The notes beneath the pieces were generated by a model that was given only the letters and a program-made list of their open reading frames with translations, was not told where the DNA came from and did no database searches. The translations under genes were made by a program, and so were the position numbers. From positions 1 through 25,349 of the IMG/VR virus record IMGVR_UViG_3300008050_003669: DNA of 25,349 nucleotides; one strand, written 5' to 3'. This stretch comes from a virus. How positions within the stretch are numbered: position 1 is the first letter of the stretch; every line of letters starts with the position of its first letter. This document shows, piece by piece, positions 2,900-23,171 of the stretch.

Positions 2900-3338
2900 T
2901 ATAGAATTAACATACAGTCGAATAGAAGATACTTATTTAGATATAACAAAATCTTATTTAAGTATCGACGAGCGTAATATAGAAAAGGCGCTTCTTCAAC
3001 ATACAGGAGTATACGCATTTTTTGGAGCGGTTTTAGCTTATGCGAAGAGAGAGGTTGATATGGTATCAAATTCTTGGGAGCAGGAAGAGGCTAGGGTTAG
3101 AGAGCAACGAAGAGCAGAACTTTTAGACGACGGTAAAAAGGCAACTGATAGAGCATTGGATGCTTATGTAAAAACTGTAAGCACTGTAAAAGAGAAGGAC
3201 CGGTTAAAAACAGAGGCTGCTCACAAGTACCACCTAGCTAAAAATATTATGAACTCTTTAGACCATCAAAAAGATATGCTGGTCCAGATTTCTGCAAATA
3301 AAAGAGCAGAGGTAAAATTAGTTGGAGATATTGGATAA
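2892..3338 (+). CDS. UvsY-like recombination mediator family protein
   Basis: A 148-residue, mostly helical protein. The C-terminal KDMLVQISANKRAE stretch (about 128-141) matches a signature I recall from a widespread phage family near SSB/RecA genes (usually ending RKDMLVQLGANLRAE), sometimes annotated as UvsY-like. The middle is rich in charged coiled-coil residues (about 60-115). UvsY loads the UvsX recombinase onto ssDNA covered by SSB, and both partners are encoded close by (SSB at 3513, RecA/UvsX at 6956), which supports the call. The start overlaps the preceding gene by 8 bases. The gene ends directly before the structured SSB leader. The family assignment is from pattern memory, not alignment. 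Confidence 0.6.
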   Translation: MNDIELTYSRIEDTYLDITKSYLSIDERNIEKALLQHTGVYAFFGAVLAYAKREVDMVSNSWEQEEARVREQRRAELLDDGKKATDRALDAYVKTVSTVKEKDRLKTEAAHKYHLAKNIMNSLDHQKDMLVQISANKRAEVKLVGDIG

Positions 3339-3344
3339 ACCCAA

Positions 3345-3352
3345 CTATAATA
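3345..3352 (+). promoter_or_regulatory. Late-type promoter motif for SSB transcript
   Basis: CTATAATA, seven bases after the end of the UvsY-like gene. Using normal -10 spacing, transcription would begin at about 3357-3359, exactly at the first base pairs of the leader stem. No -35 box is seen. Confidence 0.6.
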
Positions 3353-3355
3353 AAC

Positions 3356-3483
3356 TGTAAGGGGGAAGTACTAAAGTAAGACTAGGCGCCGGACATATAG
3401 TGGGCAGGCTAAGCCAAGCAATTAAGCTTGCACTACCTCACTGTCCTGAGATACATGCTGTAAATGTCGCTTCCCCCCTTACA
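3356..3483 (+). ncRNA. Structured 5' leader RNA of the SSB gene
   Basis: The only long gap without an ORF in the left part holds a strong RNA fold. A 13-bp closing stem pairs 3356-3368 (TGTAAGGGGGAAG) with 3470-3483, with one extra C. Inside are small hairpins: 3369-3378 (TAC/GTA), a domain closed by GGAC 3391-3394 with GTCC 3443-3446, within it GGC/GCC 3407-3415 or CAAGC/GCTTG 3415-3430, and ACAT 3453-3456 with ATGT 3464-3467. The predicted transcription start coincides with the first bases of the closing stem. It is followed by a 29-base unstructured stretch with CGGAG and the SSB start. T4 gp32 is autoregulated through a structured leader, so an analogous operator is plausible. It does not match any RNA family I recognise. 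Confidence 0.65.
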
Positions 3484-3512
3484 TTCAACAACCAAATTAA
3501 CGGAGTAAAACC

Positions 3513-4256
3513 ATGGTCAATATAGACAAACTAAGACAAAAATATGAACAAATTCAAAACGCCCAATCAGGTGGCGGAAACAACGACTTCTTAAAGAAGT
3601 TTTTTATGATGGAGGAGGGAACTTCCCAAATCCGTGTTCTCCCTTCAGGAGATTCTGATACGGATTTTTATGCGGAGACTGCGATTCACCGTATAGATGA
3701 AAAGAACTATCACTGCCCTAGAGTAAAAGGAGATTCATGCCCTGTTTGTGATTTATATTACAAATTATGGAAAATGGATGTGGATGGTGCGCAAGACCTT
3801 GCACGTTCTATCAAACCACGCAAGCGTTATTATTTAAACGTAGTAGACCGTCGTGATGAGTCTGTAAAGATTTTATCTGTAGGCATGAAGCTGTTTGGTA
3901 AGATTCTTGACTGTTTCTTTGACGAAGACTTCGGGGATATTACTGACCTAAAAGAAGGTTGGGATTTCAAAGTTGTAAAAGATACCCAAGGACAATGGCC
4001 GAATTATGATAAGTCTTCTCCAAAACCAAAACAAACCGAAGCAGGTTCTGAAAAGCAATGTGCGGAATGGATGGACGAACTTCATGATATTCACGGTCTT
4101 GTTAAGGTTGCAGAGTATGACGACTTAAAGAATATGGCTATGGAAATGGAAGCTATTGTTACAGGTCGCCCGACAGGTACCACATCACAAGCAACTACTG
4201 ACTCTGACGAGGATGAAGATTATCTTGCTCATCTTAAGAGTATTAAAGTAGACTAG
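3513..4256 (+). CDS. gp32-like single-stranded DNA-binding protein
   Basis: Coats ssDNA during replication and recombination and partners helicase, RecA/UvsX and the mediator. The 247-residue protein has the T4 gp32 layout: a short basic N-terminal arm (about 1-12) for cooperativity; a core with a zinc site read as H59 or H67, C68, C76 and C79 (CPVC); and an acidic C-terminal tail with DSDEDEDY for partner binding. T4 gp32 uses one His and three Cys, matching this set. The ATG at 3513 is preceded by CGGAG at a good distance, one of the strongest RBSs in the left block, and the gene follows the structured leader. Codons are often C-ending, suggesting high expression. The stop overlaps the next GTG start by one base. 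Confidence 0.88.
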   Translation: MVNIDKLRQKYEQIQNAQSGGGNNDFLKKFFMMEEGTSQIRVLPSGDSDTDFYAETAIHRIDEKNYHCPRVKGDSCPVCDLYYKLWKMDVDGAQDLARSIKPRKRYYLNVVDRRDESVKILSVGMKLFGKILDCFFDEDFGDITDLKEGWDFKVVKDTQGQWPNYDKSSPKPKQTEAGSEKQCAEWMDELHDIHGLVKVAEYDDLKNMAMEMEAIVTGRPTGTTSQATTDSDEDEDYLAHLKSIKVD

Positions 4257-6936: not shown

Positions 6937-6943
6937 GCGCCAA

Positions 6944-6951
6944 CTATAATA
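6944..6951 (+). promoter_or_regulatory. Late-type promoter motif before RecA/UvsX
   Basis: CTATAATA preceded by CA; TATAAT ends 5 bases before the ATG at 6956. The 19-base gap to the previous gene contains no Shine-Dalgarno, and no -35 box is present upstream. Confidence 0.6.
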
Positions 6952-6955
6952 GAAT

Positions 6956-7930
6956 ATGGTAGGATTTTTAAACGATATTTGTAAACGCTTAGAAGGAGCC
7001 GCTTTACTTTCAGAGGAAGACCAAGTTTATGGGTTTGTTGATTCAGGCTCCTATTCTTTGAATAAGGTTCTTTCGGGTAAGTATGATGGAGGTTATCCGA
7101 TTGGAGGAATTACAGAAATTTACGGTGAGAGTAGTTCTGCTAAGACAGTATTCTTAACTCACGCTTTCGTAGGAGCCCAAAAGAAAGGCTATTACACTGT
7201 AATGATTGATAATGAGCATGCTTATTCCCCCTCCTTTGCTAAGATACTTGGGGTGGACCCTGAGAAGTTAATTTATTTAATGCCTGAAACTATGGAAGAT
7301 TGCTTTAAGGCGATTGAGGAGGTTATTGAGGCTATTAGAGAGAAAGACACGGAAACTCCTATTATTATAGGGTACGACTCTATTGGGGTATCTCCTACCC
7401 GCAAGGAAATGGACGACGCGTTTGCTAAAAACAGCGAAATGGGTGGAGCTTTGAGAGCCAAAGTAGCAGGTCAATGCCTAAGACGTATCAATCCTTTACT
7501 TAGGAAACACAAAGCCGCGTTGCTTATTGTTAACCAAGTAAGGAGTAAAGTTGGAGTTATGTTTGGAGACCCTCGCACCAAAGCTGGGGGAGGCAAAGCC
7601 CTTCTTTATTACTGTTCGGTGTCCATCGAGACTTCGTCCGGTAAAAATGATGTGCTTTATGATGACCTTAAAAACCCTATGGGTATTAAAGGAAATATTA
7701 AATGTGTTAAAAACAAAGTAACCGTCCCTTTTCAATCATGTGAGTTCCACTTACTATACGACAAAGGTTTAGATAGAAAATTTGGACTTACCAAGTACGC
7801 CTTAAAGAAAGGGCAAGTTACCTCCCCTACTAGCGGGTGGTATGCATTAGAAGGCGATAGTAATAAAGTTAGAGCAGCCGCTATGGACGGTATCCTGGCA
7901 GATAAAGTGGAATCTGGAGATATAAAATGA
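6956..7930 (+). CDS. RecA/UvsX-like recombinase
   Basis: ATP-dependent strand-exchange protein for recombination-dependent replication and repair. The core begins near residue 47. Walker A is GESSSAKT at 57-64, a variant of the RecA GPESSGKT with Ala before the Lys. IIIGYDSIG near 137-145 is the Walker B strand. KAALLIVNQVRSKVG gives the L1/motif with the sensing Gln, and RTKAGGGKALLYYCSVSIE is the RecA-like region around loop L2. The 324-residue length lies between UvsX and RecA, without a long RecA C-tail. The ATG lies immediately after a CTATAATA motif with no RBS. The stop overlaps the GroES-like start as ATGA. Confidence 0.92.
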   Translation: MVGFLNDICKRLEGAALLSEEDQVYGFVDSGSYSLNKVLSGKYDGGYPIGGITEIYGESSSAKTVFLTHAFVGAQKKGYYTVMIDNEHAYSPSFAKILGVDPEKLIYLMPETMEDCFKAIEEVIEAIREKDTETPIIIGYDSIGVSPTRKEMDDAFAKNSEMGGALRAKVAGQCLRRINPLLRKHKAALLIVNQVRSKVGVMFGDPRTKAGGGKALLYYCSVSIETSSGKNDVLYDDLKNPMGIKGNIKCVKNKVTVPFQSCEFHLLYDKGLDRKFGLTKYALKKGQVTSPTSGWYALEGDSNKVRAAAMDGILADKVESGDIK

Positions 7931-10701: not shown

Positions 10702-10732
10702 ACGGATTACCTTCATTTTTACCCCCAAAAGT

Positions 10733-10740
10733 CTATTATA
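10733..10740 (+). promoter_or_regulatory. Late-type promoter motif of the basic-protein cassette
   Basis: CTATTATA preceded by GT, as at 1242 and 17330. The predicted start is around 10746, one base before a hairpin. No -35 box is seen. Confidence 0.6.
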
Positions 10741-10746
10741 GTATGA

Positions 10747-10763
10747 AGGGGCAAAAAGCCTCT
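10747..10763 (+). promoter_or_regulatory. 5'-terminal leader hairpin
   Basis: AGGGGC (10747-10752) pairs with GCCTCT (10758-10763), one G-U, around an AAAAA loop. It would form the very 5' end of the mRNA, as the larger SSB leader does, and could protect the transcript from 5' decay. CGGAG follows near 10771-10775 as the RBS for the ATG at 10784. Confidence 0.5.
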
Positions 10764-10783
10764 CATAACTCGGAGTAAAAATT

Positions 10784-11059
10784 ATGAAAGAAATTACGTT
10801 TAACTACAAAAACGCTTCAAATGACCCGTCACCAAGTGTGCTCATGGTTGCTCGCAACCAACACATGATTCGCGGTTTTAACACTAACTACATGACCAAG
10901 GGACAAGCGACCCGAATTCGTAAAGAGTGGAATAAAATTAAGAATCAGCCGTGGAGCAACGACACCAAAGTACGTGTAGTCATGAAGCGTGTGGGCAAGC
11001 CCGCAAAAAAATCTTTCCGTACCTATCGTACTGAAAGTGTGAGCAAGTATCTCGGCTAA
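10784..11059 (+). CDS. Very basic 91-aa protein, likely highly expressed
   Basis: Unknown family. About 20 Lys/Arg against 5 Asp/Glu over 91 residues gives a strong positive charge, spread along the chain (RIRKEWNKIK near 44-53, then VRVVMKRVGKPAKKSFRTYRT near 63-83). This suggests binding to DNA, RNA or a polymerase. Many codons are the C-ending or CGT type (AAC, TAC, ACC, CGT), unlike the AT-ending bias of neighbours. The gene has its own promoter motif, 5' hairpin, CGGAG RBS and a strong terminator directly behind it, the pattern of an abundant stand-alone protein. A nucleoid-like or host-takeover function is possible; neither is shown. Confidence 0.75.
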   Translation: MKEITFNYKNASNDPSPSVLMVARNQHMIRGFNTNYMTKGQATRIRKEWNKIKNQPWSNDTKVRVVMKRVGKPAKKSFRTYRTESVSKYLG

Positions 11060-11126: not shown

Positions 11127-11129
11127 AAA

Positions 11130-11137
11130 CTATAATA
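11130..11137 (+). promoter_or_regulatory. Late-type promoter motif before rmlA
   Basis: CTATAATA preceded by AA, just after the terminator T-run. TATAAT ends 5 bases before the ATG at 11142. No -35 and no Shine-Dalgarno are present. The rmlA start is fixed by its conserved N-terminus, so the very short spacing is reliable. Confidence 0.65.
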
Positions 11138-11141
11138 ATTT

Positions 11142-11870
11142 ATGAAAGGAATTATTCTTGCTGGAGGTTTAGGAACTCGTCTATCTCCATTAACCAAAGC
11201 TACTAACAAACATTTATTGCCTGTGTATGATAAACCTATGGTATATCATCCTATTAGTACTTTAGTTAATGCAGGGGTTAAGGACATTATGGTTGTTACC
11301 GGAGGTCCTCACGCTGGCGATTTTATACGCGTTCTTAGGAACGGAGAAGATTTTGGGTTAAAGGGGTTAAGTTATGCATATCAAGAAGGAGAGGGAGGAA
11401 TCGCTGTGGCATTGTCTATGGCTGAGTCCTTTGTTGGTGACGATAAGTGTGTTGTTGTTCTTGGTGATAATATTATCGCTGACGATATTAGTAGTGCTGT
11501 CAATGAGTTTAGACATGTGGGAGGGGCTCAAGTGTTTGTTAAAGAAGTTCATGACCCCGAAAGATACGGAGTTGTAGAATACTCTGAGGACGGTGAAGTA
11601 ATAGGGTTGTTAGAAAAACCCGCTAACCCTCCATCCAATGACGCTATTATAGGTCTTTATATGTACGATAACACGGTATTCACCAGAATCAAAGAGTTAG
11701 CACCATCTAACAGAGGCGAGTTAGAAGTTACAGATTTAAATCAATCATATTTGAATGATGGTTTGTTACGAGTTAAACGTGTTCATGGAACATGGATGGA
11801 TTGCGGAACCTTTGATTCCTTAGCAGAGTCTTCTTATAAATTCTATGAAGACTATAAAAGTAAAATTTAA
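11142..11870 (+). CDS. rmlA: Glucose-1-phosphate thymidylyltransferase (RmlA-like)
   Basis: Makes dTDP-glucose from dTTP and glucose-1-phosphate, the first step of dTDP-deoxysugar synthesis. The conserved N-terminus MKGIILAGGLGTRLSPLT with the LAGGxGTRL nucleotide loop fixes the start. KHLLPVYDKPMVYHPI (24-39) and VVLGDNII (with the metal-binding Asp region) follow, then FVKEVHDPERYGVVEY and EKPANPPSN, with GELEVTDLNQSYL and GTWMDCGTFDSL. At 242 residues it is shorter than the usual roughly 290, lacking the C-terminal helices. The gene follows a terminator and a CTATAATA motif with no RBS. It is 4 bases from rmlB. Confidence 0.93.
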   Translation: MKGIILAGGLGTRLSPLTKATNKHLLPVYDKPMVYHPISTLVNAGVKDIMVVTGGPHAGDFIRVLRNGEDFGLKGLSYAYQEGEGGIAVALSMAESFVGDDKCVVVLGDNIIADDISSAVNEFRHVGGAQVFVKEVHDPERYGVVEYSEDGEVIGLLEKPANPPSNDAIIGLYMYDNTVFTRIKELAPSNRGELEVTDLNQSYLNDGLLRVKRVHGTWMDCGTFDSLAESSYKFYEDYKSKI

Positions 11871-14527: not shown

Positions 14528-14542
14528 ATTAACTTCTTAGTA

Positions 14543-14550
14543 CTATAATA
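14543..14550 (+). promoter_or_regulatory. Late-type promoter motif before 72-aa gene
   Basis: CTATAATA preceded by TA; TATAAT ends 5 bases before the ATG at 14555. No Shine-Dalgarno and no -35 box are present. Confidence 0.6.
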
Positions 14551-14554
14551 AAGC

Positions 14555-14773
14555 ATGGATAAAACATTTTTAACTTGTGATTATTATGCTGAAACTATGG
14601 ACGAAAGGACTAAAGGGAAGGTCTCAATCCGAAAGGATACTATTGTAGCTGCTTATACTATTTCTGGATTTCGAAACAGGACATTAGTAATGACCGATGG
14701 AGGTCTTAAGTTCGCTGTAAAAGGTAAGCTAGAAACTCTAGATTTAGGTACCCCCTCTGTACTTTCTGAGTAA
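14555..14773 (+). CDS. Unknown 72-aa protein
   Basis: Small soluble protein with no recognised family. The residue pattern (TFLTCDYYAET, then KGKVSIRKDTIVAAYTISGFRNRTLVMTDGG) alternates strands and suggests a small beta-barrel or KOW/SH3-like fold. It begins right after a CTATAATA motif without an RBS, and its stop overlaps the nuclease start (TAATG), so it heads a three-gene unit with the nuclease and the DUF1360-like protein. Confidence 0.6.
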   Translation: MDKTFLTCDYYAETMDERTKGKVSIRKDTIVAAYTISGFRNRTLVMTDGGLKFAVKGKLETLDLGTPSVLSE

Positions 14774-22031: not shown

Positions 22032-22605
22032 TTGGGTAAGCAACGGATTAACAATAGAAGGAACGAAGTCCGAAGTAACGGAGTTCGCTAACATACTAAT
22101 GTATACCCTCGAAGGTGGGCAAAAGAAAGTTATCTCTTTCCACTCAACACTCCCTCTGCCAGAATCCGAATCGGAAAATTGGTATACTTGGCAAGTTGAA
22201 AATTGGGGAACTAAATGGGATACTTGTGAAGCAGATGGCGGAGAGGTTTATGTGAGCAATAAAGAGGAAAATAAGTTTCATTTGCATTATTGTTTTGATA
22301 CGGCTTGGTCATGTCCTACGCAATGGCTTATTAAAACTTCAAAACAATATCCTAGTTTAGTGTTTAATAATACTTGGACTGAAGAACAAGGGTATAGAGG
22401 TGTTTGTAGAACTAAAAATGGAACTGTTATAATGGAAGACCATTTAGATATTCCTAGCATTGATGATTTTTTGTCTTGGGCTGAAGAGCATGATATTGAA
22501 GTAAACAACGAGGGTTTTGAAGAAGAAGATTATTGGGAGTATGACGATTATAACGAATGGTGTAGCGAAAATATGTATCAATACCCTGAAAAATGGGAGT
22601 TATAA
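22024..22605 (+). CDS. YubB/DUF1281-like ferredoxin-like-fold protein
   Basis: A 193-residue protein. It starts MPNWVSNGLTIEG, has LPLPESESENWYTWQVENWGTKWDTCEA and FDTAWSCPTQWLIKTSKQYPSLVF, the NWxTKWD and AWSxP pattern typical of the DUF1281/YubB family, found on plasmids and phages with unknown function. The very acidic C-terminus (NNEGFEEEDYWEYDDYNEW) may be an interaction tail. GGAG upstream is a normal RBS. It overlaps the previous gene by 8 bases. Confidence 0.75.
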   Translation: MPNWVSNGLTIEGTKSEVTEFANILMYTLEGGQKKVISFHSTLPLPESESENWYTWQVENWGTKWDTCEADGGEVYVSNKEENKFHLHYCFDTAWSCPTQWLIKTSKQYPSLVFNNTWTEEQGYRGVCRTKNGTVIMEDHLDIPSIDDFLSWAEEHDIEVNNEGFEEEDYWEYDDYNEWCSENMYQYPEKWEL

Positions 22606-22607
22606 AA

Positions 22608-23171
22608 ATGGTTTATTATGAATTAAAAGAAGAAGATTGGAAAAAGGTTCTAAAACAATATAGAAAACTAATGTATATGATTGCTCATAGGATTGGTGGA
22701 GATAGAGTCGCACATGATTTTGACGATAACTTTCAAGAGTTATCTACCGCCTGTATGGAAGCAATAACAACATACGCTAGAAAAGTAGATGTGGAGTTTG
22801 ATGTGTTTTTTGAAACAACAGAATTTGATAAATACATAAAGACTTGTTTGTGGAATAAAAAGAATAATGTAGGTAATAGGATTAAAAAGAAATATGGTAT
22901 TAGAAACACTATGTCTCTTAGCGGAAGTCCCGAATCCCTTAACGATTTAACTGAATTAGAACAAGAACCTTTAGAGGTATCAGCATTAGATGATGTTAGT
23001 TTAGATACTACTGCGAAAAATGTCTTAAAGATTATTATGTCGGATTCCAAACTAATAAAACCTGATGGTAAAATAAATATATCTAAACTATCTTCTCAAC
23101 TAGGAAAAACGAAAACAGAAACACGCTTTCTTCTTGAGAAGATTGAACATCAACTTAAAGATTATGAATAA
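22608..23171 (+). CDS. Probable sigma factor of the T4 gp55 (late) type
   Basis: A 187-residue protein. The start at 22608 is preferred: GGGAG lies about 10 bases before it, and an in-frame ATG at 22593 would overlap the upstream gene. Residues about 15-95 resemble sigma region 2: YRKLMYMIAHRI, then FQELSTACMEAITTYARK, FDKYIKTCLWNKKNNVGNRIKK, the 'QE...AI..Y ... F..Y.....' pattern of core binding and -10 recognition, as in gp55. The C-terminal helix-turn-helix-like stretch ISKLSSQLGKTKTETRFLLEKI could be a reduced region 4. gp55-like factors read a TATAAATA-type element without a -35 box, matching the motif repeated in the left block. Recognition is by eye, so the family call is moderate. Confidence 0.6.
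   Translation: MVYYELKEEDWKKVLKQYRKLMYMIAHRIGGDRVAHDFDDNFQELSTACMEAITTYARKVDVEFDVFFETTEFDKYIKTCLWNKKNNVGNRIKKKYGIRNTMSLSGSPESLNDLTELEQEPLEVSALDDVSLDTTAKNVLKIIMSDSKLIKPDGKINISKLSSQLGKTKTETRFLLEKIEHQLKDYE

Follow-up and report, generated by a model that had tools for sequence, protein, structure and literature searches.

A conserved 5′-terminal hairpin and G-poor repeat linker upstream of gp32-family SSB genes in marine phages, with lineage-specific enlargement

Introduction

The leaders of ompA and T7 gene 10 carry 5′-terminal stem-loops that stabilize their mRNAs. In phages T4 and RB69, gp32 represses its own translation through a folded element and an unstructured stretch of UUAAA repeats that runs across the ribosome site (PMC535899, PMC3014915). 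In T4 gene 32 a pseudoknot lies about 67 nt upstream, the repeats are of the form UUAAA/UAAA (PMC3014915, PMC535899), and the 5′ part of the element overlaps the upstream reading frame (PMC535899). The STAXI motif, which is built of tandem pseudoknots, is another structured RNA near SSB genes (PMC2864571). Here we describe the leader of an SSB gene in a marine phage, located on a virus record of 25,349 bases that was analysed as a whole (‘the window’), and compare it with the leaders of related genes.

The SSB leader and its closing stem

The features of the leader and its gene are as follows.

3323–3351, + strand: predicted promoter of the SSB transcript (consensus match; the −10 motif recurs in relatives)
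3356–3368, + strand: 5′ arm of the closing stem, TGTAAGGGGGAAG (pairing; relatives hold a hairpin at the homologous position)
3369–3469, + strand: insert of 101 nt that enlarges the apical loop (missing from the next relative, L003/L086)
3470–3483, + strand: 3′ arm of the closing stem, CTTCCCCCCTTACA, with one bulged C (pairing with 3356–3368)
3484–3512, + strand: G-poor linker TTCAACAACCAAATTAACGGAGTAAAACC, with an SD-like GGAG at 3502–3505 (unpaired probability; family composition)
3513–4256, + strand: SSB gene of the gp32 family (PHROG 1192, E 1.3e-32; Pfam PF08804)

The gene product scores 53.8 bits against PF08804, where the cut-off is 26.8, and is thus a gp32-family SSB; its gene neighbours include those for a dUTPase, a DnaB-like helicase and a UvsX-like recombinase. 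The two arms of the stem form 13 Watson–Crick pairs around a single bulged C, exactly where an earlier note on this DNA had placed a 13-bp closing stem. At least 13 pairs were reached in one of 300 dinucleotide-preserving shuffles of 3340–3500 (that shuffle had 14), and random 161-nt windows from the same genome gave 12 at most, so that a chance origin of this stem is very unlikely. Upstream of it, a −35-like TGGAGA (3323–3328) and a −10-like TATAAT (3346–3351, within ACTATAATA at 3344–3352) are separated by a spacer of 17 and together match the consensus at 10 of 12 positions; their placement predicts a transcription start at about 3357–3358, that is, on the first bases of the stem, in agreement with the earlier note. 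The leader as a whole folds only moderately better than its shuffles (z −2.0 in one run, −1.5 to −1.7 in another), which locates the folding signal in the closing stem. A search for tRNA and tmRNA found none.

Other promoter-like sequences occur elsewhere in the window. The same motif, of the CTATWATA type, stands 3–5 nt upstream of five start codons (766–782, 1241–1256, 6943–6958, 11129–11144 and 14542–14557), those of the dUTPase, DnaB-like helicase and UvsX-like recombinase genes and of two others, which suggests leaderless or near-leaderless mRNAs; the motif before DnaB is kept in several relatives. The weakly sigma-factor-like protein encoded at 22593–23171 (PHROG 351, E 6.5e-5; Pfam Sigma70_r2 under the cut-off) is a candidate reader of such promoters. 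A further promoter with a 5′ hairpin (TGAAGGGGC-AAAAA-GCCTCTCA) and an SD lies at 10731–10786, upstream of a 91-aa gene of unknown function, and this hairpin folds at z −4.6, matched by none of 400 shuffles.

The insert within the stem

The insert has a G+C content of 46.5%, compared with 36.9% for the window. The several smaller hairpins that the earlier note had drawn inside the stem are indeed predicted, yet they do not rise above chance: folded alone, 3369–3469 is no better than shuffled sequence (z +0.43), and the inner hairpin at 3388–3449 reaches a z of −1.45. Besides the window, the insert is known from only two contigs, whose leaders are identical and which show two and five differences over 4.0 and 5.5 kb, respectively. 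Searching IMG/VR for an exact 18-nt core of the insert returned nothing beyond these two contigs, and searches of phage records by DNA similarity of the leader gave nothing useful. Against Rfam, STAXI included, the window gave nothing at the gathering score and nothing with an E-value of up to 6, the sole lax match being Chlorobi-1 on the opposite strand (E 6.5); sixteen related loci likewise gave no match at the gathering score. We rejected duplication from elsewhere in the window as the origin of the insert, since no such copy exists there, and by eye we dropped a group I intron and an HDV-like ribozyme, for which the insert is too short or lacks required parts; inspection by eye also showed no reading frame of note.

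Short-hairpin leaders of related phages

SSB searches of IMG/VR yielded 193 loci with 55 distinct leaders; among bacterial and archaeal genomes, no relatives of the SSB were found. In the next relative (L003/L086, 88% SSB identity) the corresponding position is occupied by GTAGG-GATAAT-CCTAC, a hairpin that has a loop of 6 nt and no insert. Seventeen such short-hairpin leaders, all upstream of SSBs of the same (T4 gp32) family, carry a hairpin of 4–11 bp directly after the promoter, and in most of them the −10 motif lies at −46 to −57 relative to the start of SSB. Compared with dinucleotide shuffles, these 17 leaders fold with a mean z of −2.5 (Stouffer −10.4), and a scan of 16 leaders from −150 to +120 confines the signal to the 30 nt that directly follow the promoter motif, where the mean z is −2.48, all other positions having mean z values between −0.86 and +0.55. 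Within the window's group the share of 5-mers with a pairing partner peaks at offsets 5–6 after the −10 hexamer (12 of 21 and 10 of 21), these counts not being independent events since leaders inside one group are related. Pairing also fills 98.6% of arm cells, versus 62.5% when the arms are re-dealt, with both-side changes at all five pairs, a result that is inflated because the stems were chosen from predicted folds; the shuffle, position-scan and 5-mer tests are fairer.

In the relatives, then, this position still carries a hairpin whose stems have changed yet remain paired, and the idea in the earlier note survives the test that the note itself set, a lack of compensatory changes or of conserved stems. 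That the large size is what has been conserved does not hold: the relatives have hairpins of 4–11 bp, and the interior of about 100 nt is specific to the window's lineage. We conclude that the window's leader has a conserved 5′-terminal hairpin that was enlarged in its own lineage. The loops have no conserved letters, and thus bear no mark of specific protein contact.

Some leaders depart from this form. The L106 group, L149, L151 and L157 have no separate leader or no recognizable promoter, and in the L106–L145 group TATAATAATA and a hairpin of the form TCxGC-N10-GCzGA lie within the coding sequence just upstream of SSB. Many relatives have such an in-gene hairpin just downstream of TATAATAATA, where it may serve as the hairpin of the SSB mRNA; its wobble positions tend to remain paired (mean z −1.47 in a synonymous-codon control with 19 sequences). 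The window has a counterpart:

3291–3310, + strand: secondary, weaker hairpin TCTGC-N10-GCAGA in the 3′ end of the upstream gene (synonymous-codon control)

Elsewhere, the leaders of L094, L095 and L097 contain small frames (MKRKRFLKELL..., MKGNRTPLW...) that begin at the predicted transcription start; L094, identical in sequence to L010, has a different enlarged leader with a 31-aa frame from that start. In L073 and L159 a T run follows the 5′ hairpin, resembling an intrinsic terminator at the transcription start.

The linker and ribosome site

Downstream of the stem, the leader is predicted to be open (mean unpaired probability 0.86 over 3484–3515), and we propose 3484–3512 as the stretch where SSB and the ribosome would bind. 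Linkers across the family are A-rich, depleted in G and repetitive in AAC: G makes up 6% of the 26 nt that precede SSB starts, versus 17% at 187 other starts, and [TC]AAC occurs 2.08 times per 26 nt versus 0.33, with two or more copies at 76% of SSB starts and 4.8% of the others; the 187 controls inadvertently include a few SSB starts. The repeats in the window are UUAAC with one UAAAA, those of the family mostly [UC]AAC.

gp32 leaders of Kyanoviridae and other T4-like phages

The same plan is common among the leaders of Kyanoviridae phages in culture and of 80 loci from IMG/VR; cyanophage S-CAM1, for example, has TATAATAC-GATC-GTGACGGGGGTCAC and a G-poor linker upstream of gp32. Among 39 Kyanoviridae-type leaders with a recognizable promoter, 28 contain a partner that can pair with the 5-mer 6 nt past the −10 hexamer, compared with only 0–3 for 5-mers at offsets 0–5, although these leaders are mutually related and the counts are not independent events. 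The stems include GTGAC/GTCAC, GTGAT/ATCAC, GTGGT/ACCAC and GTTGG/CCAAC. The plan was not clearly seen in gp32 leaders of Lysinibacillus, Bacillus, Flavobacterium, Vibrio and Microcystis phages.

Kyanoviridae also have an enlarged form, GYUGGGC-[hairpin]-CGUAAGACCCARC (GUUGGGC...CGUAAGACCCAAC), present in at least 120 contigs (loci with the motif are L233, L244, L248, L257, L258, L264, L273, L317, L324, and L326 onward) and followed by the gp32 N-terminus in all 114 of the listed contigs with enough downstream sequence. Its structure is paired in 97% of cells with both-side changes at six pairs, and it combines an invariant internal part with a covarying inner helix; the loci tested gave no Rfam match. 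Like the window's leader, these leaders consist of promoter, enlarged 5′ hairpin, G-poor linker and gp32 gene, whereas their letters, size and inner structure are unrelated to those of the window's insert, and direct reading of 3356–3483 confirmed that GYUGGGC...CGUAAGACCCARC is absent there. Enlarged 5′ hairpins thus recur before gp32 in separate forms.

What the leader may do

The earlier note had offered an autoregulatory operator, a 5′ stabilizer or an unrecognized RNA element; the gp32-family SSB, the T4-like layout and the hairpin kept in relatives support this framing in part, while large size as a conserved feature drops away. We hypothesize, with confidence about evenly divided for and against, that the leader acts in the manner of the T4 gene 32 operator while also capping the RNA end. 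Transcription would start at the base of the hairpin, so that the RNA begins with the stem and has little or no free 5′ end, and a single-stranded, G-poor linker, about 29 nt long and containing AAC repeats, would run across the ribosome-binding site to the start codon. SSB in excess of the available single-stranded DNA would then bind this linker cooperatively, with the hairpin as its boundary or nucleation site, and block translation of its own message, while the 5′-terminal stem would additionally slow 5′-dependent decay. In the window's lineage, the hairpin loop has gained about 100 nt, and its closing stem measures 13 bp. Counting against this model, strong translation would equally select an A-rich, G-poor stretch before the start codon, the loops bear no mark of specific protein contact, the hairpins resemble simple stem-loops rather than the T4 pseudoknot, and some relatives have no separate leader or no recognizable promoter.

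The main rival is pure stabilization, a serious possibility that nonetheless falls short of an even chance: the 5′-terminal stem would block pyrophosphate removal and RNase E-type entry, and with them 5′-end-dependent decay, the open A-rich linker would initiate strongly, and SSB would leave its own leader unbound. That the stem lies exactly at the predicted 5′ end argues for end protection, and in two phage groups the stem begins at the predicted start, the letters of stem and loop are free to vary, and the linker composition suits strong initiation. However, linkers with AAC repeats are much more frequent before SSB genes than before the 187 other starts; L149, L151 and L157 retain the linker without a recognizable promoter hairpin, a better fit to an SSB target; and autoregulation by gp32 of T4 and RB69 is documented (PMC535899).

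We consider it improbable that the insert is an independent regulatory RNA, that is, a ligand- or protein-sensing domain borne on the 5′ hairpin. A 101-nt segment of elevated G+C in an otherwise short leader would suit such a domain, and the invariant part and covariation of the second enlarged type, in Kyanoviridae, imply that a 5′ hairpin enlarged in this way can be a genuine RNA element; against this, the window's interior folds no better than shuffles, lacks an Rfam match (gathering score; up to E 6), and has copies that are all identical. It is very improbable that the hairpin serves as a terminator or an attenuator separating SSB from the gene upstream, as the T run that follows the hairpin in L159 and L073 is missing after the stem in the window and most relatives, and the hairpin lies downstream of the promoter. 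Chance folding of a G+C-rich stretch is hardly credible, whole-leader z values of just about −1.5 to −2.0 notwithstanding, since position and pairing are conserved in relatives; it is contradicted for the stem, and may apply to the interior.

It is conceivable, albeit rather unlikely, that gp32-type SSB genes across marine T4-like phages share a common, undescribed class of leader, a 5′-terminal hairpin with a G-poor repeat linker, and that different lineages have independently attached larger RNA domains to it (the window's insert of about 100 nt; GUUGGGC...CGUAAGACCCAAC), through which SSB control gains a second input. The conserved hairpin and repeat linker before marine-phage gp32 offer concrete RNAs for testing, several of them from cultured phages; among these RNAs is the enlarged form of cyanophages, which shows covariation and has no match in Rfam.

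Comparison with known systems

The window resembles STAXI in having structured RNA near an SSB gene, and differs in that STAXI has tandem pseudoknots and finds no Rfam match in the window. As in leaders of the ompA and T7 gene 10 type, the stem is predicted to lie at or beside the transcription start; unlike in these, a special G-poor repeat linker comes next.

The T4/T2/RB69 gene 32 operator shares with the window a gp32-family SSB, a folded element upstream of the initiation region, and an unstructured, G-poor repeat stretch that spans the ribosome site. In the T2 leader, which served as a control, the folded element likewise precedes the G-poor stretch, and the in-gene hairpin of some relatives parallels the overlap of the T4 element with the upstream frame. 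In contrast, T4 has a pseudoknot where we find simple hairpins, predicted by tools that do not model pseudoknots; its repeats are UUAAA/UAAA rather than UAAC/CAAC; and the enlargement of about 100 nt is a further difference. With what looks like a plain hairpin and with differing repeats, the leader is a candidate for, rather than an established member of, the T4 operator class. Even so, because its parts and their order match those of T4 and RB69, the analogy with that operator is well motivated, and as this layout is kept with different letters in many related marine phages, it is probably a T4-like control switch.
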